From an uncultured Lachnospiraceae bacterium (GTDB lineage: Bacteria > Bacillota > Clostridia > Lachnospirales > Lachnospiraceae): 64,000 nt of DNA. The notes below the pieces were generated by a model, which was given only the letters and a program-made list of their open reading frames with translations, made no database searches and was not told where the DNA came from. Within the stretch, counting starts at the first letter, position 1, and each line of letters begins with the position of its first letter. Position numbers and translations under genes: made by a program. Positions 27,915 through 45,357 of the stretch are shown one piece after another. The stretch lies in NCBI GenBank assembly GCA_902763335.1, contig CACWRR010000002.1, positions 62,001 to 126,000 on the forward strand, in the 5' to 3' direction.

Positions 27915-30900
27915 ATGAACAAAAAAAGATTTATTTCAGCATTGCTCGTTGTTGTGATGGTATTTACATCTCTTCATCTTGACAGTATAGATGTAAAGGC
28001 AATGACTGAAGCAGATAACAGTATCGTATATTCATATAATGATACTGACAAAACAGCTACCGTTACAGGCTATAATGATGATTCATCAAATCCTGTGACG
28101 AGTATAGTAATTCCGGAAACAGTTACAAAGGATAATGTTTCTTATACTGTAAGCAGTATAGAATCCGGCGCACTGACACAGGATAAATGCAGTGCACTCA
28201 AAGAAGTGGCTGTACTCGGAGATAAGGTAGAAATCCAGCAAGATGCTTTTGGTAAAGCAGCAGTAGATGGAGAGACTACAGGCGGATTTGTTGTATGGTG
28301 TAATGCAGGAAGTACTGCTGAAACATATGGTAATTCTATCGGTGCTACAGTAAAATATCTGAATGTTAAGGATATAGAGATACCGCAGCCGGTAAAAACT
28401 TATTTTTCAGGATGTGAGCCGTTTACAATTACAACAACAATAGCTGCGAAAGATTCAGCTACAGCTACTGAAGACATCTTATTTACAATTCCAAAGGAAA
28501 GTATGAAATATATATACTTTGTTGGAAATGACGGAAACCCAACCAATACCACAACAGGTACAATCACACAGAATAGTGATGGAACTGCAAAAGTAGAAGC
28601 AATGGTTCAGGTATGTACTACAGAAAACATGGATGTACAGGATGCCGAAGTTACAATAACGGCATCATCAAGAGGTACAGGTGAAAATGCTACAAATACA
28701 TACAATATATATAAGGCTACTTCAACAATCTCACAGGAGATAAGAGTTTTTAAGGTTATCAGAGAATATGATGAAGCTAAAAAGCAGTATATTACACAGG
28801 CAGTTGAATCAGACGAAGGTGTATTGATTAAGGTAGAAGAAGTGCCTTTAGAAGAACTTGAATCAAACGGATATTTTTCAAACAACACATTATATGTAGA
28901 TAAAGATTACATATTTGCAATAAAAGGTCTTACGGATAATGTATCAGCATATGATTCTATAGGATCTACATGGAATATTTCAACACAGAAAGCTGTTGAA
29001 AGTCTTGTTGGAAAAACATTCAATTTTACCAGTGTGTCAGACAAGCAGCTGGAGGCTTATGGTATAGCAGACACAAATGGTAATGAGATAGTAGATGTTG
29101 ATGCCGGGTTATTAAAATATGCCAATTCAGTCGGTACTACATATACAAGACTTTTCAGTAAAAACAACACATTATCAAAGAATATAAATGTTCAGGTATG
29201 TCAGCCAGCAGAATCACTTAAAATGAAATTGAATGGTGCTGAAGTTGAGTATGGTTCATATATATCAGGACTGGTTCAGACATCATATCAGTTATCACAT
29301 GAATTCACACCTACAAATTCAACAGATACAGTTGTATGGTCATCAGATAACCCGGGTGTTGCTTCGGTAAATGATGGTACAAGCCTTTATCTGAATACAG
29401 CGGGTGATGCGACAATAACATGTACTGTAAAAGATTCAAAAAGTGGAAAAAGAAATCTTGCAGGCTGGTTTAAAATCAAGAGTCTTGCAAAATATCAGTA
29501 CAAGGAAATCGTTTTTGCAAAGGATGATAACAAAAATGAGACCATTACAAAATGTGATATACCTGTAAATGGTGAATATAAAATAATAGTATGTGATGCA
29601 AGGGATGGAGTTATATATACACCGGCTGACAGCGAAACGGCTGCTAATGAACCATGTACGTTTAAATCTTCCAATGAATCTGTTGCAAAGGTAGATGAAT
29701 ATGGAACAATAACAGCAGGAGCAAAGGCAGGAACAGCAAAGATCACTGTAATATCTGAAAGTGGTGTAAGCAATATTCTTGAGGTAAATGTATATGCCCC
29801 TGTAACGGATATTGTGGCTAATACAATATTTACAGTTCCTATGGGACAGACAAGAGAACTTTCATATTCGTTTAAACCTGCTACAGCTACAGAGGACGTT
29901 GTATGGTCAAGTGAGAATAATTCAATATGTGTCGCAGAGGATTATGTAAATGATAACGGAGAGAGAAGCGTAAAAATCAGCGGATTAAAAGAAGGAAAAG
30001 CAATGCTTACCGGAAAAACAGTTCAATCCGGTGCAACAGTCAGAATAAATGTTGAAGTTGCAAAACCTATAAATACAGATAAGATATCATTAAATTCAGA
30101 TCTTAATGATGTTACAACAGATGAAGAGGGAAATACAGTATATAATGTTGCCAAGGGTAATTCGTTTTATGTAAAACCTGTAATTACAAGCAACGACCCT
30201 GAGAATCCTACACCAAATGATCTTACAAAATGGACAATTGAGGCAGGACAGGATGTGTGCAATGTATCTTCAGATGGAGGTAATACAGTTACATTTACTG
30301 CTAAAAAAACAGGAAAGATTAAAGCTACATTCACCGCATACGGAAAAACACCGGCTGGTGATGAATTTGAGAAAAATGTTTCATTTTATATAAATGTTTA
30401 TGTTCCTGCGACAAGCGTGGATATAAAGGCCAATAATGCAAGCACTGATGTGGTAAATGTTGAACTTGGAAATACTGCACAGATTTCGGCAATTCTTACA
30501 CCGAGTGACAGTACAGACAGTATTTCATGGACTCAGGATAATGATAATGTTGAATTGTCAGTTGATAAAACAGCTTCCGGTGTATCAACGATATTAACGG
30601 GAAAAAAAGTCGGTACAACAACATTGACAGCGACTTCTGATTCAGGAAAAGTTGACACAATTAAAGTAAATGTCATCATAAAGGCAGAGAAGATATCTTT
30701 CTATCAGCATGGACAGGAAGCTACAAAGGCATATGTTCCGCTTAAAGGTACAGCTGATATTTCTTTAAGTGTATCAAATGATGATGTTACAACAGATAAA
30801 ACATTTACATGGAGTACCACAGGTAATTCAACATATATTAACATTAAGCCATCAGAAGATGGAAAAAGTGCAGTTATAGAAGGACTTGCTAAAGGAACAC

Positions 30901-32717
30901 AGAAAATTACGGTTACGGCACCGTCGGGTGCAACAGCATCAATTGATGTGGAGGTTGTGGTACCTGCTGAAAGCATAGAACTTAATAATACTGAATTTTC
31001 AATATTTAAGGGAGATTCTCCTATAAATGTATTTGCCAGTATTTCACCGGCAGAGACAACGGATGTAGTAACATGGAGTGTGGATAAAGAAGGTATTATT
31101 AAGATAGCAGAGGATAAAGCTAACACAACAACAACTAAGAAGAGCATAACAGTTCAGGGTGTTGAAGTTGGAGAAGTAACGCTTACAGCTACAACGGTTG
31201 ACGGACTTACTGCAAGTATGAAGATTACGGTTACTGCAAGAGATGTTGATGATACAACTATATCGGCCATACCTGATCAGACATACAGTGGCAGAGAGAT
31301 TACACCGGGATTCAATGTAGTAAGTGGAAATAAGTCATTAAGATTAAATGCAGATTACACAGTCAAATACACCGATAATATAAATGCCGGTACAGCTACA
31401 ATTACAGTAGAAGGTATAGGAATATATGCGGGTACAAAGACAACAACATTTAAGATTAATCCAAAACAGATCAGCCAGACACAGAATCAGGCACTAACTG
31501 CTGTTAAATATAACGGACAGGCACAGACACCGGAACTTGCACTTACAGATTCAGCAAGCGGAACTGCCGTAACATTGGTTGAAGGTAAGGATTATACTGT
31601 TGAATATCTCAATAATACAAATGTTGGAAATGGTATAATCAAATTTACAGGTATGGGTAATTATACAGGTGAGAAGAGTGTTAATTTCCAGATAACAGCA
31701 AAGGATATAAGTACGGCAGAAGATGTTGTTATTGAAGATATTCCGTCTGTAACATATAACGGAACAGGTCAGATACCGAATGTTGTTGTGAAAGATGGAG
31801 ATAAGGTGCTTGAGCTTAACAAAGATTATATTGTTGCAGCTGCAGACAATGTAAATGCCGGTACAGCTACAGTAACAATAACAGGAAGAGGTAATTATAC
31901 AGGTATACTTAAATCACAGTTTACTATCAACAGAAAGTCATTAAGTAAGGCAAAATTACCGGTATTTAATAACCAGACATATTGCGGAAATGCTTTTACC
32001 ATAACGAACATGACAGTTGTTGTTGATAATAGAACATTATCTATGAATAATGATTTCAAGGTTACATGTACTAATAATAAATATCCTGGAAAAGTAACAG
32101 TTAAGATAACAGGTATTGGAAACTATAAGTCATCAGCTACAACATCATATATAATATTACCGGCAGCACCTACACAGCCAAAGATTTCATCAAATACAAG
32201 CAGTAGTGTAAAATTAAGCTGGAAAAAGTCTGTTAAGGCTACAGGATATTATATATACAAATATGACCAGAAAAAGAATAAATATGTTAAGGCAGCTTCT
32301 ACAACAAAGAATTCTGTTACAGTAAGCAAGCTTGCTTCAGGAACTAACACAACATTCCAGATATATTCATATGTTAAAGTTGGTTCTAAAGTATATAAGA
32401 GTGCTCAGTATGCTACTATTGTTGCAGGAACAAAGACTAAGACACCTTCTATCAAGAAAGTTAAATCTCAGGTTTCTAAGAGTGCAACAGTTGAGTGGAA
32501 AACAGTAACAGGTGCTGAAGGATATGAGATATACTATTCAACTTCAAAAAATGGTAAATACAAGTTATTTGGAAAAGTTAATGGTGTGTCTTCAAATGTC
32601 ACAGGCCTTAAAGCAAAGAAAACATATTATTTCAAAATCAGAACATATAGAACAATAAACGGAAAGGTTTACTATAGTTCATACTCTTCAGTAAAGAGTG
32701 CAAAAATTAAAAAATAA
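27915..32717 (+). CDS. 1600-residue secreted Ig-like/Fn3 repeat protein
   Basis: Signal peptide (residues 1-30, cut after VKA). N-terminal 120 residues look like one BspA-type leucine-rich unit. Residues about 430-1115 are Big_2/Ig-like domains with the repeat pattern VVWSSDNPGVASVN... and VTWSVDKEGI.... Four further Ig-like modules lie at about 1108-1185, 1186-1266, 1267-1344 and 1345-1420, each with a YNG or TYSG motif and an N-Y-T-G/K loop, resembling adhesin or S-layer-associated domains. Two fibronectin type III domains end the protein (about 1425-1510 and 1515-1595). I see no LPxTG sortase signal, SLH motif or choline repeat, so how it is held at the surface is unclear. ATG follows AAAGGAGGAAAATA. 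Probably an adhesin or wall-associated matrix protein. Confidence 0.88.
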   Translation: MNKKRFISALLVVVMVFTSLHLDSIDVKAMTEADNSIVYSYNDTDKTATVTGYNDDSSNPVTSIVIPETVTKDNVSYTVSSIESGALTQDKCSALKEVAVLGDKVEIQQDAFGKAAVDGETTGGFVVWCNAGSTAETYGNSIGATVKYLNVKDIEIPQPVKTYFSGCEPFTITTTIAAKDSATATEDILFTIPKESMKYIYFVGNDGNPTNTTTGTITQNSDGTAKVEAMVQVCTTENMDVQDAEVTITASSRGTGENATNTYNIYKATSTISQEIRVFKVIREYDEAKKQYITQAVESDEGVLIKVEEVPLEELESNGYFSNNTLYVDKDYIFAIKGLTDNVSAYDSIGSTWNISTQKAVESLVGKTFNFTSVSDKQLEAYGIADTNGNEIVDVDAGLLKYANSVGTTYTRLFSKNNTLSKNINVQVCQPAESLKMKLNGAEVEYGSYISGLVQTSYQLSHEFTPTNSTDTVVWSSDNPGVASVNDGTSLYLNTAGDATITCTVKDSKSGKRNLAGWFKIKSLAKYQYKEIVFAKDDNKNETITKCDIPVNGEYKIIVCDARDGVIYTPADSETAANEPCTFKSSNESVAKVDEYGTITAGAKAGTAKITVISESGVSNILEVNVYAPVTDIVANTIFTVPMGQTRELSYSFKPATATEDVVWSSENNSICVAEDYVNDNGERSVKISGLKEGKAMLTGKTVQSGATVRINVEVAKPINTDKISLNSDLNDVTTDEEGNTVYNVAKGNSFYVKPVITSNDPENPTPNDLTKWTIEAGQDVCNVSSDGGNTVTFTAKKTGKIKATFTAYGKTPAGDEFEKNVSFYINVYVPATSVDIKANNASTDVVNVELGNTAQISAILTPSDSTDSISWTQDNDNVELSVDKTASGVSTILTGKKVGTTTLTATSDSGKVDTIKVNVIIKAEKISFYQHGQEATKAYVPLKGTADISLSVSNDDVTTDKTFTWSTTGNSTYINIKPSEDGKSAVIEGLAKGTQKITVTAPSGATASIDVEVVVPAESIELNNTEFSIFKGDSPINVFASISPAETTDVVTWSVDKEGIIKIAEDKANTTTTKKSITVQGVEVGEVTLTATTVDGLTASMKITVTARDVDDTTISAIPDQTYSGREITPGFNVVSGNKSLRLNADYTVKYTDNINAGTATITVEGIGIYAGTKTTTFKINPKQISQTQNQALTAVKYNGQAQTPELALTDSASGTAVTLVEGKDYTVEYLNNTNVGNGIIKFTGMGNYTGEKSVNFQITAKDISTAEDVVIEDIPSVTYNGTGQIPNVVVKDGDKVLELNKDYIVAAADNVNAGTATVTITGRGNYTGILKSQFTINRKSLSKAKLPVFNNQTYCGNAFTITNMTVVVDNRTLSMNNDFKVTCTNNKYPGKVTVKITGIGNYKSSATTSYIILPAAPTQPKISSNTSSSVKLSWKKSVKATGYYIYKYDQKKNKYVKAASTTKNSVTVSKLASGTNTTFQIYSYVKVGSKVYKSAQYATIVAGTKTKTPSIKKVKSQVSKSATVEWKTVTGAEGYEIYYSTSKNGKYKLFGKVNGVSSNVTGLKAKKTYYFKIRTYRTINGKVYYSSYSSVKSAKIKK

Positions 32718-35911: not shown

Positions 35912-35920
35912 AATAGAGAT

Positions 35921-35992
35921 GCATCCGTAGCTCAGTGGATAGAGCACTGGCCTCCGGAGCCAGGTGCGTGAGTTCGACTCTCATCGGATGCA
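35921..35992 (+). tRNA. tRNA-Arg (anticodon CCG)
   Basis: Full cloverleaf. Acceptor GCATCCG/CGGATGC (7 pairs), D-arm with GCTC...GAGC, anticodon stem CTGGC/GCCAG with loop CTCCGGA (anticodon CCG at 35954-35956, reads CGG), T-arm GTGAG-TTCGACT-CTCAT with one G-U pair. Discriminator A; the 3' CCA is not encoded. It stands alone. Confidence 0.95.
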
Positions 35993-36010
35993 TTCAATAA
36001 ATCAAATCAT

Positions 36011-36970
36011 TTAGGTCACAATTTTGTCGATATTTCTTTTGTATATGTATACGTGGTTTGACAAAACCTCACTGTCTGTGACTTCTTCACGATTCACATC
36101 CTGAACCATAAGAGAAAGCTCGTTTTTTAATAATCCCTCTACAATAGGAACAAGAATAACTTCATGTACACTGCTTGGTAATATATATAAATCGGATTTT
36201 ACTTTTTCGGCGAAATCTTTTAAGACATTTTTGTAGAAAATGCAGGCAGCACCGTACATTTTTTGAGAATTTGTGAGAACATACATTTCAACAGGCTTGT
36301 TAGCCATGTTCAGAGTATCAAGAATTTTATCAGCTTCATCCTCAACTGAAATATCCATAGGTATTTTCCCTTCAATTTGCTGGCGTTGTAAATCGCTTGC
36401 AAACATTTCGCGTATAATATCATTCATGTTACGTATTTCTGCCGGAAGTATCCTTGGTGTATTCTGGTAGGATGCCTTTACAATATCTTCTGTTGTGACA
36501 TTCCACATATCCATGTGACTGTTATGAATAAGAGCAGTAGCACTTCCGAGATAATCACTGTCTATTATACAGTAAAATACAAGAGCCAGATCCATGTTTA
36601 GTACATGGGGAATATCGTTTAAAAGCCGTATATTCTTTTTGGCATTGATAACCTTATATACAATATGACTGCTTATATTTTGAAAATTTTTAAACAGTTC
36701 TATATCAAATTCAAGCTCATTGCTGTGTTCTTCATACAGTGAAAATATTTCATGTATAATATCACCGAGAGGTTTCCCGTTTTTATAATCATCATAGTAC
36801 TGATTGAGATAGATGGTCGGCGAGATGTTTGAAATATCATCTGTAATGGTAAGTGCATCATATTCAATGTCGTTTGTTTTAAGAATCTTACTTATATTAA
36901 CATTTTTCTCCTTTCCTAATATTTTGATAATGCTGGATTTTACGTAATCCAGAAATTCAGAGTAATTCAT
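36011..36970 (-). CDS. DUF5688 family protein
   Basis: 319 residues, soluble. I recognise the family pattern of Lachnospiraceae DUF5688 proteins: an N-terminal helical region (MNYSEFLDYVKSSI), a central ANMVLFY-like part, and a C-terminal KMYGAACIFYKNVLKDFAE ... LPSSVHEVILVP region. Function is unknown. Start at 36970 has AAGGAG about 10 bases upstream on its strand; longer in-frame starts reach into the promoter at 37092-37120. It converges on the tRNA-Arg gene 18 bases away, without a visible terminator. Confidence 0.8.
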   Translation of the reverse strand: MNYSEFLDYVKSSIIKILGKEKNVNISKILKTNDIEYDALTITDDISNISPTIYLNQYYDDYKNGKPLGDIIHEIFSLYEEHSNELEFDIELFKNFQNISSHIVYKVINAKKNIRLLNDIPHVLNMDLALVFYCIIDSDYLGSATALIHNSHMDMWNVTTEDIVKASYQNTPRILPAEIRNMNDIIREMFASDLQRQQIEGKIPMDISVEDEADKILDTLNMANKPVEMYVLTNSQKMYGAACIFYKNVLKDFAEKVKSDLYILPSSVHEVILVPIVEGLLKNELSLMVQDVNREEVTDSEVLSNHVYIYKRNIDKIVT

Positions 36971-37091
36971 ATCCCCTGTTCTCCTTTTCTTTGTATTTGC
37001 AACCATTTTATATGGGTATGCACTTGGAAATTGATCGATTCTGATCGTGAAATAATTTGAAATTAAATTAGATCTGACTAGATACAAAATA

Positions 37092-37120
37092 TTTATATCA
37101 CACAACATAAACAATGTCAA
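37092..37120 (-). promoter_or_regulatory. Sigma-A promoter of the DUF5688 gene
   Basis: Reverse strand TTGACA (37120-37115), 17-base spacer, TATAAA (37097-37092). A leader of about 115 bases results. Confidence 0.7.
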
Positions 37121-37135
37121 GCACAAAAAACATTA

Positions 37136-38547: not shown

Positions 38548-39894
<1,347 letters not shown>

Positions 39895-39950
39895 TATCTG
39901 ATAAACTATGAGAAATGCGGACTTTGGTCCGTTGCTCGCATAAATTTAAG

Positions 39951-39984
39951 ATGCCCCGTAGTTGTAATACTCACGGGGCATTTT
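39951..39984 (+). terminator. Intrinsic terminator of gdhA
   Basis: ATGCCCCGT/ACGGGGCAT perfect stem, 13-base loop, then TTTTG. A smaller hairpin (TGCGGACTTTGGTCCG) precedes it at 39916-39931. Confidence 0.88.
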
Positions 39985-40028
39985 GAGTTTATATAAACCG
40001 GTGAAAAAAGGAATTTGTGAGGTGCATT

Positions 40029-41312
40029 ATGAATAAAGAGAAAGGGTTGTTTACCGAATTATTAGTAATAACTGTAATACCTCTCATGATATTGGCAATT
40101 ACAGTTACTGTCTTATGCAATGAAAGATTCACAAAAACTATATATGGACAGGTTGAAAAGGAATTAAAAGATATAGCAGTTTCGGTACTGGATACATATG
40201 ATATGGCATATCCGGGAAATTATACAATGGTGGAAGATGAGAAAACTATCCGGGTGTATAAAGGTAAAAATGAAATAACAGGGGACAATACATTTATTGA
40301 TTCGTTAAAAGAAGATACGGGAATAGACATTACTATATATTATTATAATACGAGAATACTTACGACACTGTATAATGATGGCAAACGGCTTGTTGGAACT
40401 TATTGCAGTTCAGTTGTCGAAAATGATGTACTTGAAAAGAAAAAATCAAATTTTTATAAAAGTGTTTATTTAGGTGAAGAAGAATATTTTGCGTATTATC
40501 AGCCTGTTTTTAATGCTGATAATGAGTGCGTCGGAATTGTTTTTACAGGGAAACCTGTAGCTAAAATAAAAAAAGAAATAAATATGAATTTGATTCCGCT
40601 TGTTACGGTTATCATCATATTTATATTAATAATCGTGATATTGTGTTTGAGATATACAAACAGAATTTTAAAATACATTAAAAGTTTAAAAAATTTTATG
40701 GGACAGATTGCAAATGGAAATCTGTCTACGGAACTTAACGCTGAAATTTTGAAAAGAAATGATGAAATCGGAACTATGGGACGTTCTGCCGTGGAAATGC
40801 AAAATTCTCTCAGAGTTTATGTAGAACAGGATGTTCTTACAAAAATTAATAACAGGCGTTATGGTGAGAAGATGTTGTCTAAGATATTGCGTGAATCACA
40901 AAAAAATGGTGTAAAATTTACAGTTGCAATAGGAGACATAGATTATTTTAAGAAAGTTAATGATACATATGGACATGAATGTGGAGACATGGTGTTAAAA
41001 AAGGTGGCTTTTGTTTTAAGAAAAAATATGCAGTCAAACGGATTTGTCGCACGTTGGGGCGGGGAAGAATTTTTGCTGGTGTTTTATGATTGCGATTTGG
41101 AAAAGTCAGTTGAAATATTGAAAAATATTTCAGAAGAGATAAATAATATGAATATGTTTTATGACGGAAAGGAAGTCAGCATAACCATGACATTCGGGGT
41201 GACTCAGGGTGACAGTTCAAAGAAGGAACATATCATAATAAAAGAGGCTGATGACAGGCTGTATGTCGGAAAGAAAACAGGAAGAAACAGGATAATTGAT
41301 AGAAATGTATAA
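40029..41312 (+). CDS. Membrane diguanylate cyclase with extracytoplasmic sensor
   Basis: 427 residues. Helix 1 (residues 9-30), an extracytoplasmic Cache-like sensor (about 32-185), helix 2 (about 187-208), a HAMP-like linker (about 210-265) and a GGDEF domain (about 280-427). The catalytic motif is intact (RWGGEEF at about 341-347) and IGDIDYFKKVNDTYGH carries the metal site, so it should make c-di-GMP. The inhibitory I-site RxxD is not visible upstream of the GGEEF motif (residues read QSNG), so product inhibition may be absent. The start ATG follows GTGAGGTGC. Its end overlaps the next gene by 8 bases, so it leads that operon. Confidence 0.92.
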   Translation: MNKEKGLFTELLVITVIPLMILAITVTVLCNERFTKTIYGQVEKELKDIAVSVLDTYDMAYPGNYTMVEDEKTIRVYKGKNEITGDNTFIDSLKEDTGIDITIYYYNTRILTTLYNDGKRLVGTYCSSVVENDVLEKKKSNFYKSVYLGEEEYFAYYQPVFNADNECVGIVFTGKPVAKIKKEINMNLIPLVTVIIIFILIIVILCLRYTNRILKYIKSLKNFMGQIANGNLSTELNAEILKRNDEIGTMGRSAVEMQNSLRVYVEQDVLTKINNRRYGEKMLSKILRESQKNGVKFTVAIGDIDYFKKVNDTYGHECGDMVLKKVAFVLRKNMQSNGFVARWGGEEFLLVFYDCDLEKSVEILKNISEEINNMNMFYDGKEVSITMTFGVTQGDSSKKEHIIIKEADDRLYVGKKTGRNRIIDRNV

Positions 41313-42303
41313 TAAATTTTTTTCACATATTTATGTTGAGAGACAGGCTTTAGAATACGAAACAACAGGACTTATACTTAAAAAATTTAAAAATTCGGAA
41401 ATAATATATATAGACCACTATAAGGATGTGTTTTCAAGAAAGCATCAGGATTTCATGCACCAGAAAAACTGTCAGTCAATTATACTGGCGGTTAATAATG
41501 AGAAAAGCGTATATAAGGGTGCGCCTGTATGCCAGAGCTTTGGAAATGAACATTTTTACTATTGCTCCAATATAAAAAATTGTATATTTGATTGTGAGTA
41601 CTGTTATCTTCAGGGCATGTATACTTCGGCAAATATTGTTATATATGTAAATATTGAAGACATATTTAAAGAAGTTGACAGTATTGCAGAAAAACATCCG
41701 GTGTATCTGTGTATATCATATGATACGGATCTGATTGCGCTTGATGGAATAACCGGATTTCTGGCAAAATGGAACGATTATGTGTGTAAGCGTAAAAATA
41801 TTACCATTGAACTCAGGACGAAATGCGGATACAGCAGTTTTATAGAAAATTTCAGTAATTACATAAATGATAATATGATTTTTGCATGGACATTATCACC
41901 AGATTTTGTTATTAACAGGTACGAACATAAAACAGCGCAATTAAAACAAAGATTAAAAGCCGTAAATTATGTGATAAATAACGGAGGCAGGATTCATTTG
42001 TGCTTTGACCCTTTAATTTATTGCGAAGACTTTGAACAGGTTTATGGGGAAATGTTTAAAGAGGTATTTTCAGCCATTGACAGTACGAAGGTTGAGGGTG
42101 TGAGTATAGGTACATTCAGAATATCAAAGGCCTACCTCAAAAATATGCGAAAAAACAGGGTCAGTGCGGTTACATACTATCCCTATGAATGTCATAACGG
42201 TGTATATGAATATGGTGATGAAATAAACAGTAAAATGCTGGGATTTGCGAGAGAAAAAATAGAGGAATATATTTCAGCAGATATAATATTTGAAGGAAAT
42301 TAA
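41305..42303 (+). CDS. splB: Spore photoproduct lyase-like radical SAM protein
   Basis: 332 residues. Radical SAM cluster motif CIFDCEYCYLQ (cysteines 93, 97 and 100; CX3CX2C). A later cysteine at about residue 136 (YLCISYD) sits where SPL has its hydrogen-donor cysteine. This pattern is that of spore photoproduct lyase, which repairs UV thymine dimers in germinating spores. Known members are around 340 residues. It overlaps the preceding GGDEF gene, and a short-chain dehydrogenase gene follows 27 bases downstream. Repair function is a strong family inference; the operon context is unusual. Confidence 0.85.
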   Translation: MYNKFFSHIYVERQALEYETTGLILKKFKNSEIIYIDHYKDVFSRKHQDFMHQKNCQSIILAVNNEKSVYKGAPVCQSFGNEHFYYCSNIKNCIFDCEYCYLQGMYTSANIVIYVNIEDIFKEVDSIAEKHPVYLCISYDTDLIALDGITGFLAKWNDYVCKRKNITIELRTKCGYSSFIENFSNYINDNMIFAWTLSPDFVINRYEHKTAQLKQRLKAVNYVINNGGRIHLCFDPLIYCEDFEQVYGEMFKEVFSAIDSTKVEGVSIGTFRISKAYLKNMRKNRVSAVTYYPYECHNGVYEYGDEINSKMLGFAREKIEEYISADIIFEGN

Positions 42304-42330
42304 AAAAGAGAAATTTGTGTGGAGGCAAAT

Positions 42331-43041
42331 ATGAAGGCAGCGATTGTTACGGGTGTCACATCCGGTATAGGAAAGGCAATTTCAGGGATGCTTATAAAAC
42401 AGGGCTATGATGTGTATGGATTTGGACGTGATTTCAGTAAAATCGAACATGATAAAGAGCTGAATCAGATGAAGAAGTTTCAAATCGATTTGACAGATAT
42501 AGGTTTGCTGACAGAAACCTTAAAGAAAATAAAAAAAGAAGCTGACATATTTCTGGTTGTAAATAATGCCGGAGTAGCATATTTTTCATTGCATGAGGAA
42601 ATGAATCCTCAAAAAATACATGAAATGGTATGTGTGAATCTGGAAGTGCCTATGGTAATCAGCCAGCTTTTAATGCGTGATTTAAAGAAAAATAAGGGAA
42701 CGATAATAAATATTTCTTCAGTCACGGCAAAGAAAACTAATACCTATGGCTGCTGCTATGGAGCTACTAAGGCGGGAATCACAAGCTTTTCAAACAGTTT
42801 ATTTGAGGAGAACAGAAAATATGGTGTCAGGGTGATTACAATACATCCTGATATGACCATGTCTGAATTGTACAGAAACGCAGATTTTGATGTGGGAGAA
42901 TCAGCGGATTCATATATTTTACCGGAGGAAGTTGCTTCTACGGTGAAATGGGTATTAGAACAGAGAGACGGACTGGTAGTCACGGATATTACCGTGCGTC
43001 CGCAGAAGCATTTATTATCCAAAGGGAAAAGACGAAAATGA
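42331..43041 (+). CDS. Short-chain dehydrogenase/reductase
   Basis: 236 residues, classical SDR. Cofactor loop TGVTSGIGKAIS (about 7-18), NNAGVAY (about 83-89), catalytic S in ISSVTAKK, YxxxK as YGATK (about 148-152). Substrate unknown. Start at 42331 has TGGAGG about 9 bases upstream. The stop overlaps the ATG of the next gene (ATGA, 4 bases), so the two are translationally coupled. Confidence 0.9.
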   Translation: MKAAIVTGVTSGIGKAISGMLIKQGYDVYGFGRDFSKIEHDKELNQMKKFQIDLTDIGLLTETLKKIKKEADIFLVVNNAGVAYFSLHEEMNPQKIHEMVCVNLEVPMVISQLLMRDLKKNKGTIINISSVTAKKTNTYGCCYGATKAGITSFSNSLFEENRKYGVRVITIHPDMTMSELYRNADFDVGESADSYILPEEVASTVKWVLEQRDGLVVTDITVRPQKHLLSKGKRRK

Positions 43042-43847
43042 ATATATATGACAGAATAATTGAATTGAAACAAATGAGAAACTGTTATGAAATGTGGGAG
43101 GAATACAGGGGAAATCTTACTTCATATATTATAAAACATGTGTCGGCAGGAGATGAGATAGCAGTATTTGGAGCAGGAAGGTGCGGAGACATAGATTTAA
43201 AATTACTTTCGGATGCCGGAGCGCGTATCAGTCTTTTTGATAATGATTATGATGCCATGTCAGAGGCGGTAGAGTATTATGGTATTGATGCGGAATGTAT
43301 CCTATGTGATTTTGTCGGTATATTTCCGGATGAATACAGAGAGATTCAGGATATAGTCGTTCACGAATTGAGAAGACATAACTCTATAGAAAAGGCTGCG
43401 TGCGAAGTGTATAAATATCTTCAGGGAGTGTATGCAGCACTTTCTGATAAAACACCTGCATTTGGTGAACAGTGCTTTGATATGGGCATATGTGCCGGAG
43501 TATGCAGCCAGATAAATAATACGGCAGCGTGGATATGGGAGGCAGTGTGTAACACATTTCAATATACAGATGATGAAATATTTAATCTGATTAAAGAAAA
43601 TAATTCTAAATGTGTGGAAAAATTTCACGGTGCAATAATTAATTCTGTAAAAGGAAAATTTATAGCGGTAAATGAGATTGAAAGATATGGAGTACAGGGC
43701 AGCGTTGAGGGAGCGTGGCAGGCTATAAATGATATAAAAAAATCAGATAAAATTAAAGTAATAGATGAAAAAATGTGTGACTGGATTTATAATAATAATA
43801 TAAAATATAGGATGCTTATACAGTATGCAGAAAAATGCATTAGATAA
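43038..43847 (+). CDS. Methyltransferase-fold protein of unknown function
   Basis: 269 residues. A class I SAM-binding fold is suggested by EIAVFGAGRCGDIDLKLL (about 33-50, glycine-rich motif I), ISLFDNDYDAM (acidic motif II, about 56-66) and ECILCDFVG (about 78). The C-terminal half is helical and cysteine-containing (CFDMGICAGVCSQ). I do not recognise a named family; it could be a methyltransferase, or another nucleotide-binding Rossmann-like enzyme. It overlaps the SDR gene by 4 bases and precedes a PfkB-like gene by 26 bases. Confidence 0.65.
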   Translation: MNIYDRIIELKQMRNCYEMWEEYRGNLTSYIIKHVSAGDEIAVFGAGRCGDIDLKLLSDAGARISLFDNDYDAMSEAVEYYGIDAECILCDFVGIFPDEYREIQDIVVHELRRHNSIEKAACEVYKYLQGVYAALSDKTPAFGEQCFDMGICAGVCSQINNTAAWIWEAVCNTFQYTDDEIFNLIKENNSKCVEKFHGAIINSVKGKFIAVNEIERYGVQGSVEGAWQAINDIKKSDKIKVIDEKMCDWIYNNNIKYRMLIQYAEKCIR

Positions 43848-43873
43848 TTGTGAAATTAGAAATGAGGGTTAAT

Positions 43874-44794
43874 ATGAAAAATACAAATAATTTTTTGGTT
43901 GCAGGAATTTTGCAAATGGAAACAATTGTAAGAGTGCAGAATGTACCTGTTGAGTACAGGTCTCTTACAAGCAGGGCAAATACAATATTTACGGATGTCG
44001 GTGGAGATGCCTACAATACGGCAAAGGCACTTAAATGGCTTGGAAATGATGTGGACCTTCTGTCGATGATAGAGAAAAACACTTCGCCGGATATTATAAA
44101 CAATCAGAACGATTCCATAGAACTGTCTACAGACTACATATTAAACCGGTTAGATGCCATGCCGTCTGCGGTGACATTTTATGCGGATAATAAAAAACAG
44201 CAGGTATTTGAGGATACAAAAGATCTTATTAATAATGAATATGATATGGACGTGTACAAAAAGAGACTTGAAACGGCAGATATGGTTGTGCTGTCTAATG
44301 TACATTTTTGTAAACCGATGATAGATGAGGCACTTGAAAGACAGATACCGGTTGCAGTCAATATCAGAGACTTCGGTAAAGAGGATTTGAAATTTAATGA
44401 TGCATTTTTAAGTGTTGCAGATATTATTTACATAAGTGATGATGATCTGACTAAAAATCATTATGAGTTTGTTAAGGAGATAGCAGATATTTATTCACCA
44501 AAAATCATTATTTTAGGAAGAGGTGCAAATGGTGTACTTTTATATTCGGCTGAAGATAATATATTTGCAGAGTATAAGAGTGTGAGAACGCTTGAAGTGG
44601 TAAATACTGTCGGAGCCGGAAATGCGCTTTTTTCCTGCTTTTTGCATTACTATGTAAAAACAGGAGATGCAGTTTTATCAATTAAAAATGCACTCCTGTT
44701 TGCTTCTTATAAAATCGGTTTTGTAGGTACGTCAAATGGATTTATGACGGAAGAGCAGATTGAACATTGGCATAATATTATCTGGAACAGATAG
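43874..44794 (+). CDS. PfkB-family sugar kinase-like protein with altered catalytic motif
   Basis: 306 residues of ribokinase fold. It has the DVGGDAYNTAKALKWLG motif near residues 37-53 (the usual GG sugar/ATP region), an acidic lid segment, and near residue 245 NTVGAGNALF. In active PfkB kinases this anion-hole motif reads GAGD, the Asp being the catalytic base; here that residue is N (codon AAT at 44621-44623). The protein may be catalytically poor or a sugar/nucleoside-binding regulator. It is the last gene of the GGDEF-splB-SDR-MTase series. Start at 43874 follows GAGGG. Confidence 0.82.
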   Translation: MKNTNNFLVAGILQMETIVRVQNVPVEYRSLTSRANTIFTDVGGDAYNTAKALKWLGNDVDLLSMIEKNTSPDIINNQNDSIELSTDYILNRLDAMPSAVTFYADNKKQQVFEDTKDLINNEYDMDVYKKRLETADMVVLSNVHFCKPMIDEALERQIPVAVNIRDFGKEDLKFNDAFLSVADIIYISDDDLTKNHYEFVKEIADIYSPKIIILGRGANGVLLYSAEDNIFAEYKSVRTLEVVNTVGAGNALFSCFLHYYVKTGDAVLSIKNALLFASYKIGFVGTSNGFMTEEQIEHWHNIIWNR

Positions 44795-44801
44795 AATTAC
44801 T

Positions 44802-45314
44802 TTACAATGTCATATTTATCTTTGAAACGGATTTTTTAATCTGTTTCATAAAATCACTGGAATTTGAAAATAAATTCTTCACGTCATCAATTTTGGCATT
44901 TTTGAGTTTATTCTCATCAATTTCAAGAGTTGAATCACTTTTTACGGTAATTCCGATTTTTTCAAGTGCTTTGCTCTGACTCTTTGTAAGTTTGCTTATT
45001 TTGTCAGCTCTGTATGTTACATCATATGATGTAGATTTGGCAGTTGAGGATTTAAAATTGTTATATATTGATACAAAGGCACCGACTTTACCTTTCAGAT
45101 TTGAGTCGGCATTTGACTGCTCGGCATTAAAATTTAAAGTGCGGACATCTTTTATAAATTTGTTCAGTGCCTTTGTATCGTATGATACCAACAGGCTGTC
45201 AGAGATATCGGTTCTTCCTGAAGATTTTTTTGCTTCTCTGTTTGGAGAATAGTATTTTCCAAGGTAAAATGATGATGATAATGAAGAATTACTTGTATCT
45301 ATTGATGAACTCAT
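44802..45314 (-). CDS. Small FliD C-terminal-like protein
   Basis: 170 residues, no signal peptide or membrane helix; Ser/Lys/Asn-rich. The C-terminal half (KALEKIGITVKSDSTLEIDE, then NKLKNAKIDDVKNLFSNSS) strongly resembles the C-terminal region of flagellar cap protein FliD, but the rest of FliD (about 300 residues) is absent. An alternative is an independent secreted or structural protein that shares the motif. Start at 45314 has GGAGGG about 7 bases upstream on its strand. Its promoter looks like a flagellar sigma type (see separate entry). The 3' end lies 7 bases from the convergent PfkB gene. Confidence 0.68.
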   Translation of the reverse strand: MSSSIDTSNSSLSSSFYLGKYYSPNREAKKSSGRTDISDSLLVSYDTKALNKFIKDVRTLNFNAEQSNADSNLKGKVGAFVSIYNNFKSSTAKSTSYDVTYRADKISKLTKSQSKALEKIGITVKSDSTLEIDENKLKNAKIDDVKNLFSNSSDFMKQIKKSVSKINMTL

Positions 45315-45357
45315 AATTTTTCCCTCCATAAAATAAAATTAATTTTATATATTGTAT

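Follow-up and report, generated by a model that had tools for sequence, protein, structure and literature searches.

A lineage-specific operon with a spore photoproduct lyase-like radical SAM protein probably draws on a widespread, non-spore enzyme set of anaerobic bacteria

A 64,000-nucleotide stretch of DNA from an uncultured Lachnospiraceae bacterium (assembly GCA_902763335.1, contig CACWRR010000002.1, positions 62,001 to 126,000; hereafter the window, with coordinates counted from its first letter) carries five co-directional genes that span 40029–44794, with starts taken as ATG. The second gene encodes a radical S-adenosylmethionine (SAM) protein that resembles spore photoproduct lyase (SPL), known as a DNA-repair enzyme of spores, and the third a short-chain dehydrogenase/reductase (SDR). 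The genes and the hairpins that flank them are the following.

39945–39990, + strand: terminator-like hairpin between gdhA (38560–39894) and the operon (−24.2 kcal/mol, z −7.1, RNA fold)
40029–41312, + strand: diguanylate cyclase, sCache_3_3-HAMP-GGDEF, motif GGEEF; lineage-specific neighbour
41305–42303, + strand: SPL-like radical SAM protein, 332 residues; cluster Cys93/97/100, Tyr139 at the Cys141 position (B. subtilis numbering), invariant Cys76
42331–43041, + strand: SDR oxidoreductase, adh_short; often present as third member of the conserved set
43038–43847, + strand: methyltransferase-fold gene, predicted class I SAM-methyltransferase fold, family unnamed; lineage-specific neighbour
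43874–44794, + strand: PfkB-fold gene, catalytic Asp gone (GAGN for GAGD); lineage-specific neighbour
about 44823–44848, strand not assigned: hairpin after the PfkB gene (−15 kcal/mol for 44790–44850, z −4.9, RNA fold)

A first-pass annotation of the window had reported these five genes, and all of its coordinates were reproduced: the cyclase and SPL-like genes overlap by 8 bases, 27 bases separate the SPL-like from the SDR gene, the SDR and methyltransferase-fold genes overlap by 4 bases (ATGA), and a gap of 26 bases precedes the PfkB-fold gene. Because strong hairpins flank the five genes, the single operon proposed there is likely, and the overlaps also point to co-transcription; the downstream hairpin falls within the 3′ end of a convergent gene (44802–45329, − strand). 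No riboswitch was found in the window. Orthologues of all five genes, in unchanged order, are found in a second species of the genus (L061/L133) at 42–71% identity, and the arrangement is therefore not a product of chance. Conservation of the whole set, which the annotation had raised, does not extend beyond that species among the loci examined; what is widely conserved is a different set, in the order nucleosidase, SPL-like gene and SDR.

Analysis of the SPL-like protein reveals the fold of SPL together with several departures from it. The protein matches Pfam SPL (PF20903) at 74 bits and misses the NCBIfam equivalog cut-off of TIGR04070 (84.5 against 400 bits). Its AlphaFold2 model (predicted local distance difference test score, pLDDT, 89.9) has the SPL fold, superimposing on the SPL structure 4fhc with a template modelling (TM) score of 0.82 over the full length, whereas other radical SAM proteins reach at most 0.51. 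Similar to SplB (PF20903, TIGR04070; PDB 4FHD), the SPL-like proteins keep an invariant CxxxCxxC cluster motif (C93/C97/C100), Tyr residues that neighbour the cluster Cys, and the conserved Lys of a TK motif. However, similarity to solved SPL stops at about Geobacillus (Gt) residue 276 (profile match, with the offset taken by hand), and the C-terminal part, which in SPL includes lesion-contacting residues, is not recognisable by sequence. A tree of 149 sequences separates the SPL-like from the SplB-type group with high support and pairs the window protein with that of the sister genome G250; in one genome (G024) a canonical SPL and an SPL-like protein coexist.

A further departure concerns the catalytic Cys. 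In B. subtilis SPL the H-atom donor is Cys141 (PMC3742179). The equivalent position (Cys141 in B. subtilis, Cys140 in Geobacillus; aligned via 4fhg/4rh0) is Tyr139 in the window protein (codon 41719–41721, + strand), and across 61 SPL-like proteins it is Tyr in 55, Phe in 6 and Cys in none. Another residue, Cys76 (codon 41530–41532, + strand), sits in the loop that leads up to the cluster motif, at a distance of 17 residues from the first cluster Cys, and is invariant in two alignments (40/40 and 61/61). Cys76 may be a relocated H-atom donor that replaces Cys141. Such a relocation is feasible, since the SPL of C. acetobutylicum is reported to rely on another conserved Cys (C74), at the opposite side of the pocket (PMC5368176), and PDB 4rh0, a Geobacillus SPL with the substitutions C140A/S76C, carries an engineered Cys. 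The C. acetobutylicum enzyme and the SPL-like proteins share the placement of a conserved Cys upstream of the cluster rather than at the Cys141 position; the two differ in spacing, which is 14 in the sequences that we took as the C. acetobutylicum type (L253, L254), and no nucleosidase adjoins the latter.

We note separately that SPL-type proteins of Clostridia (L124–L132, L253–L254) lack Cys141 in at least two further ways, with GSNSD, or with AATSD/SSSSD and an upstream Cys in CQPSAD/CKPSAH. There is thus more variation in the catalytic Cys of SPL than one would expect from the studies on B. subtilis.

About 65 of the 397 family genomes encode relatives of the SPL-like protein, mostly at 40–63% identity, with SplB-type proteins set apart at 23–28%; a search for related loci covered the best 80 of 542 relatives. 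Reading of their neighbourhoods reveals a protein of about 285 residues encoded immediately upstream, overlapping or fused, and an SDR downstream. The upstream protein is a predicted nucleosidase. Across 154 loci, which include some genomes more than once, 124 have it directly beside the SPL-like protein, 14 carry it as a fusion and 1 has it nearby (139 in total, mostly Clostridia), and the two genes overlap in 92 of the 103 pairs measured. Fusobacterium vincentii carries a fused nucleosidase-SPL protein plus an SDR. Most loci from Lachnospiraceae and Clostridiaceae have an SDR gene beside the SPL-like one, and the SDR of the window (adh_short, 126 bits) is 43–61% identical to the orthologues beside SPL-like genes. 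Because several outer families carry the pair without it, the gene content points to the nucleosidase and the SPL-like protein as the core, with the SDR as a frequent third member. There is no fourth conserved neighbour: the commonest neighbouring family, ABC-transporter-like, occurs at 12 of 128 loci and in mixed places.

Four other contexts for the set were considered and rejected. Riboswitch control, as a clue to the substrate, was discarded since none lies close to the set at 22 cassette loci; the only riboswitch, an FMN (flavin mononucleotide) one in L158, is about 4 kb upstream. Upstream of the nucleosidase there are sigma-A-like promoter words and no LexA boxes, and SOS control was rejected because LexA-type boxes are no commoner than in shuffles. 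A defence system was dismissed for want of any PADLOC match. A mobile element was likewise rejected, as the one Fusobacterium record labelled a plasmid is as large as a chromosome, and two faecal contigs listed as “phage”, both unannotated, are probably bacterial DNA. Two records filed as phage, MT835514.1 and MT835770.1, carry an SPL-like gene; in MT835514.1 an SDR-nucleosidase-SPL set stands among non-phage-like genes, which suggests mislabelled bacterial DNA.

The cassette nucleosidase belongs to the superfamily of purine nucleoside phosphorylase and methylthioadenosine/S-adenosylhomocysteine nucleosidase (PNP/MTAN), and its profile matches solved MTAN chains. The catalytic residues E12, E174 and D197 of MTAN are kept as E11, E148 and D173 (aligned to 3bl6), with E11 and E148 invariant and D173 present in at least 90%. 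This Glu, Glu, Asp triad is shared with MTA/SAH nucleosidase and futalosine hydrolase (PF01048), from which the cassette protein differs in an extra C-terminal part, in its SPL-like partner or fusion, and in a missing segment. The missing segment includes the adenine-binding loop of MTAN (GLIVSGDSFIGSVEQR in S. aureus MTAN) and aligns as an insertion against the cassette profile.

The window itself contains no nucleosidase. A whole-genome search found an unlinked copy on another contig (G000:C30:2014-2808, 250 bits), and likewise in G250. In the three remaining genomes of the genus (G014, G251 and G252), which have no SPL-like gene, the search gave only weak matches to ordinary MTAN, below 27 bits; the genus therefore holds both genes in two genomes and neither in three. 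Among 250 genomes of the family, the nucleosidase profile matched in 31 of the 39 with an SPL-like gene and in 0 of the 211 others. Since the two are co-inherited even where they are unlinked, the nucleosidase and the SPL-like protein appear to work together, and this co-inheritance outlasting the loss of linkage is the strongest evidence for such a partnership. Judged by eye, the unlinked gene (L287) closely follows an open reading frame of 343 codons resembling a membrane protein and precedes a small PadR-like regulator gene.

The distribution of the set also bears on its relation to spores. Genes for small acid-soluble spore proteins (SASP) were present in 35 of 66 genomes with an SPL-like gene and in 225 of 331 without one (tallied by hand from lists), so that 31 of the 66 have no detectable SASP gene; the genome of the window does have them. 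Fusobacterium is a non-spore-former. From its distribution, then, the nucleosidase-SPL-SDR set is not tied to spores. The SPL-like protein is not a standard spore SPL, because Cys141 is replaced in 61 of 61 sequences and the gene does not track SASP genes; together with the missed TIGR04070 cut-off, this bears out the suspicion of the first-pass annotation.

We therefore read the operon, with a probability of about 0.6, as a lineage-specific arrangement built on two members of a three-gene, vegetative enzyme set that is widespread in anaerobic Clostridia and Fusobacteria. The likely substrate of that set would be a nucleoside or base that is modified or damaged, rather than spore photoproduct in spores. 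The SPL-like enzyme would perform a radical cleavage with Cys76 as H donor, the nucleosidase would split the substrate or product at its N-glycosidic bond, and the SDR would reduce or oxidise a carbonyl or hydroxyl of a fragment. In this genus, the cyclase, the methyltransferase-fold protein and the PfkB-fold pseudo-kinase would have joined the SPL-SDR pair, with the nucleosidase gene elsewhere in the genome. A more specific version, to which we give somewhat less than an even chance, is a repair or salvage pathway of growing anaerobes in which a damaged or modified nucleoside is handled by a nucleosidase, an SPL-type radical enzyme with a relocated Cys and a dehydrogenase, the SPL fold thus serving beyond spores. 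The first-pass annotation had left the substrate as a nucleoside or sugar compound and the combination of genes as one not known to it. Nucleoside-type chemistry becomes likelier with the co-inherited nucleosidase, and no description of a nucleosidase-SPL-SDR pathway was found in open-licence papers.

Several points weigh against our reading. The outer families mentioned above lack the SDR. The nucleosidase profile missed 8 of the 39 SPL-like genomes, several of which, among those checked, have a divergent or short copy adjoining the gene. The family genomes are related, and the Fisher P value consequently overstates their independence. The spacing of 17 differs from the 14 of the C. acetobutylicum-like sequences (L253, L254), and the equivalence of Cys76 is an alignment judgement.

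Alternatively, the SPL-like protein could be a genuine lyase for spore photoproduct (or dithymine) in DNA, like that of C. acetobutylicum, with a relocated Cys, and the nucleosidase and SDR its helpers or passengers. The SPL fold (TM 0.82), the conserved Tyr residues and TK motif and the activity of an SPL that has C74 for Cys141 (PMC5368176) all fit such an enzyme. We nonetheless consider it unlikely, as the protein is present in non-sporing Fusobacterium and in the 31 SASP-negative family genomes, forms a clade separate from the canonical SPL with which it coexists in G024, shows sequence similarity to SPL that ends around Gt residue 276 and does not reach the C-terminal part, and has a co-inherited nucleosidase partner.

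A comparably improbable alternative is that the nucleosidase only clears 5′-deoxyadenosine from an SPL-like enzyme that lost SAM recycling with Cys141, the two forming a by-product clearance pair. The MTAN-like catalytic residues and the fusion proteins are consistent with clearance, and the C141A variant of SPL no longer regenerates SAM (PMC3742179). However, absence of the segment holding the MTAN adenine-binding loop argues against simple clearance, and the genome of the window also has an ordinary MTAN-type protein.

Least of all do we favour one dedicated pathway of the five window genes under cyclic di-GMP (c-di-GMP) control, which the shared five genes of the sister species (42–71% identity), the overlaps and the bounding hairpins would suit, but in which the diffusible signal of the cyclase would meet no recognised c-di-GMP-binding part in the operon, the cyclase, methyltransferase-fold and PfkB genes do not accompany SPL-like genes at the loci examined outside the genus, and homologues of the last two occur in other contexts.

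As a working analogy for the set that we favour, the queuine salvage enzymes QueL and QueK of C. difficile also pair a radical SAM lyase with a nucleosidase. Identity of the SPL-like protein with QueL was rejected: against solved structures its profile gave a meaningful match to SPL chains only, the next (E about 0.8) being synthetases of FMN and flavin adenine dinucleotide (FAD), and QueK is of another family (IPR023186) than the cassette nucleosidase. There was no sequence match to the solved QueL structure, 6P78. Such a large SPL-fold family, with a co-inherited nucleosidase and a catalytic Cys that may have moved, suggests that in gut Clostridia and Fusobacterium radical chemistry on nucleosides takes place outside spores; the partnership can be tested directly on the fused proteins. 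Genes of gut genomes that are annotated as “spore photoproduct lyase” may be misnamed.

Of the five genomes of the genus, two have the three remaining genes of the operon alongside the SPL-like gene, as does no other locus among those examined; the general coupling to c-di-GMP that had been proposed is not upheld. The diguanylate cyclase (Pfam GGDEF 131 bits, sCache_3_3 95 bits) looks active from its GGEEF motif (ARWGGEEF), and G250 alone has an orthologue at this position (54% identical). The methyltransferase-fold protein matches no Pfam or NCBIfam family. It has the motif GAGRCGDID, and Methyltransf_12 matched weakly in 4 of 16 homologues; a low-confidence model (pLDDT 65) suggests a class I methyltransferase fold, its listed PDB matches being nearly all SAM methyltransferases or spermidine/spermine synthases. 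Members of this protein family are encoded by 15 of the 250 family genomes, amid varied neighbours.

The PfkB-like protein (Pfam PfkB, 62 bits; family present in 25 of 250 family genomes) is probably not a kinase, because the catalytic Asp of DTxGAGD is lost both in it and in its close homologues. The motif reads NTVGAGN in the window and G250; ten close homologues have Asn in nine cases (one within GVGN) and Glu in one, and two distant homologues retain Asp. A role as a metabolic kinase is therefore doubtful. The subfamily with Asn (once Glu) for the GAGD Asp (window 43874–44794, L256–L266) is likely a pseudo-kinase family, independent of SPL-like genes.

Elsewhere in the window, a DUF5688 protein (36011–37126, − strand) adjoins a tRNA-Arg gene (35920–35993), and 27915–32717 encodes a protein of 1600 residues with Big_2 and fn3 domains, probably a large surface protein.

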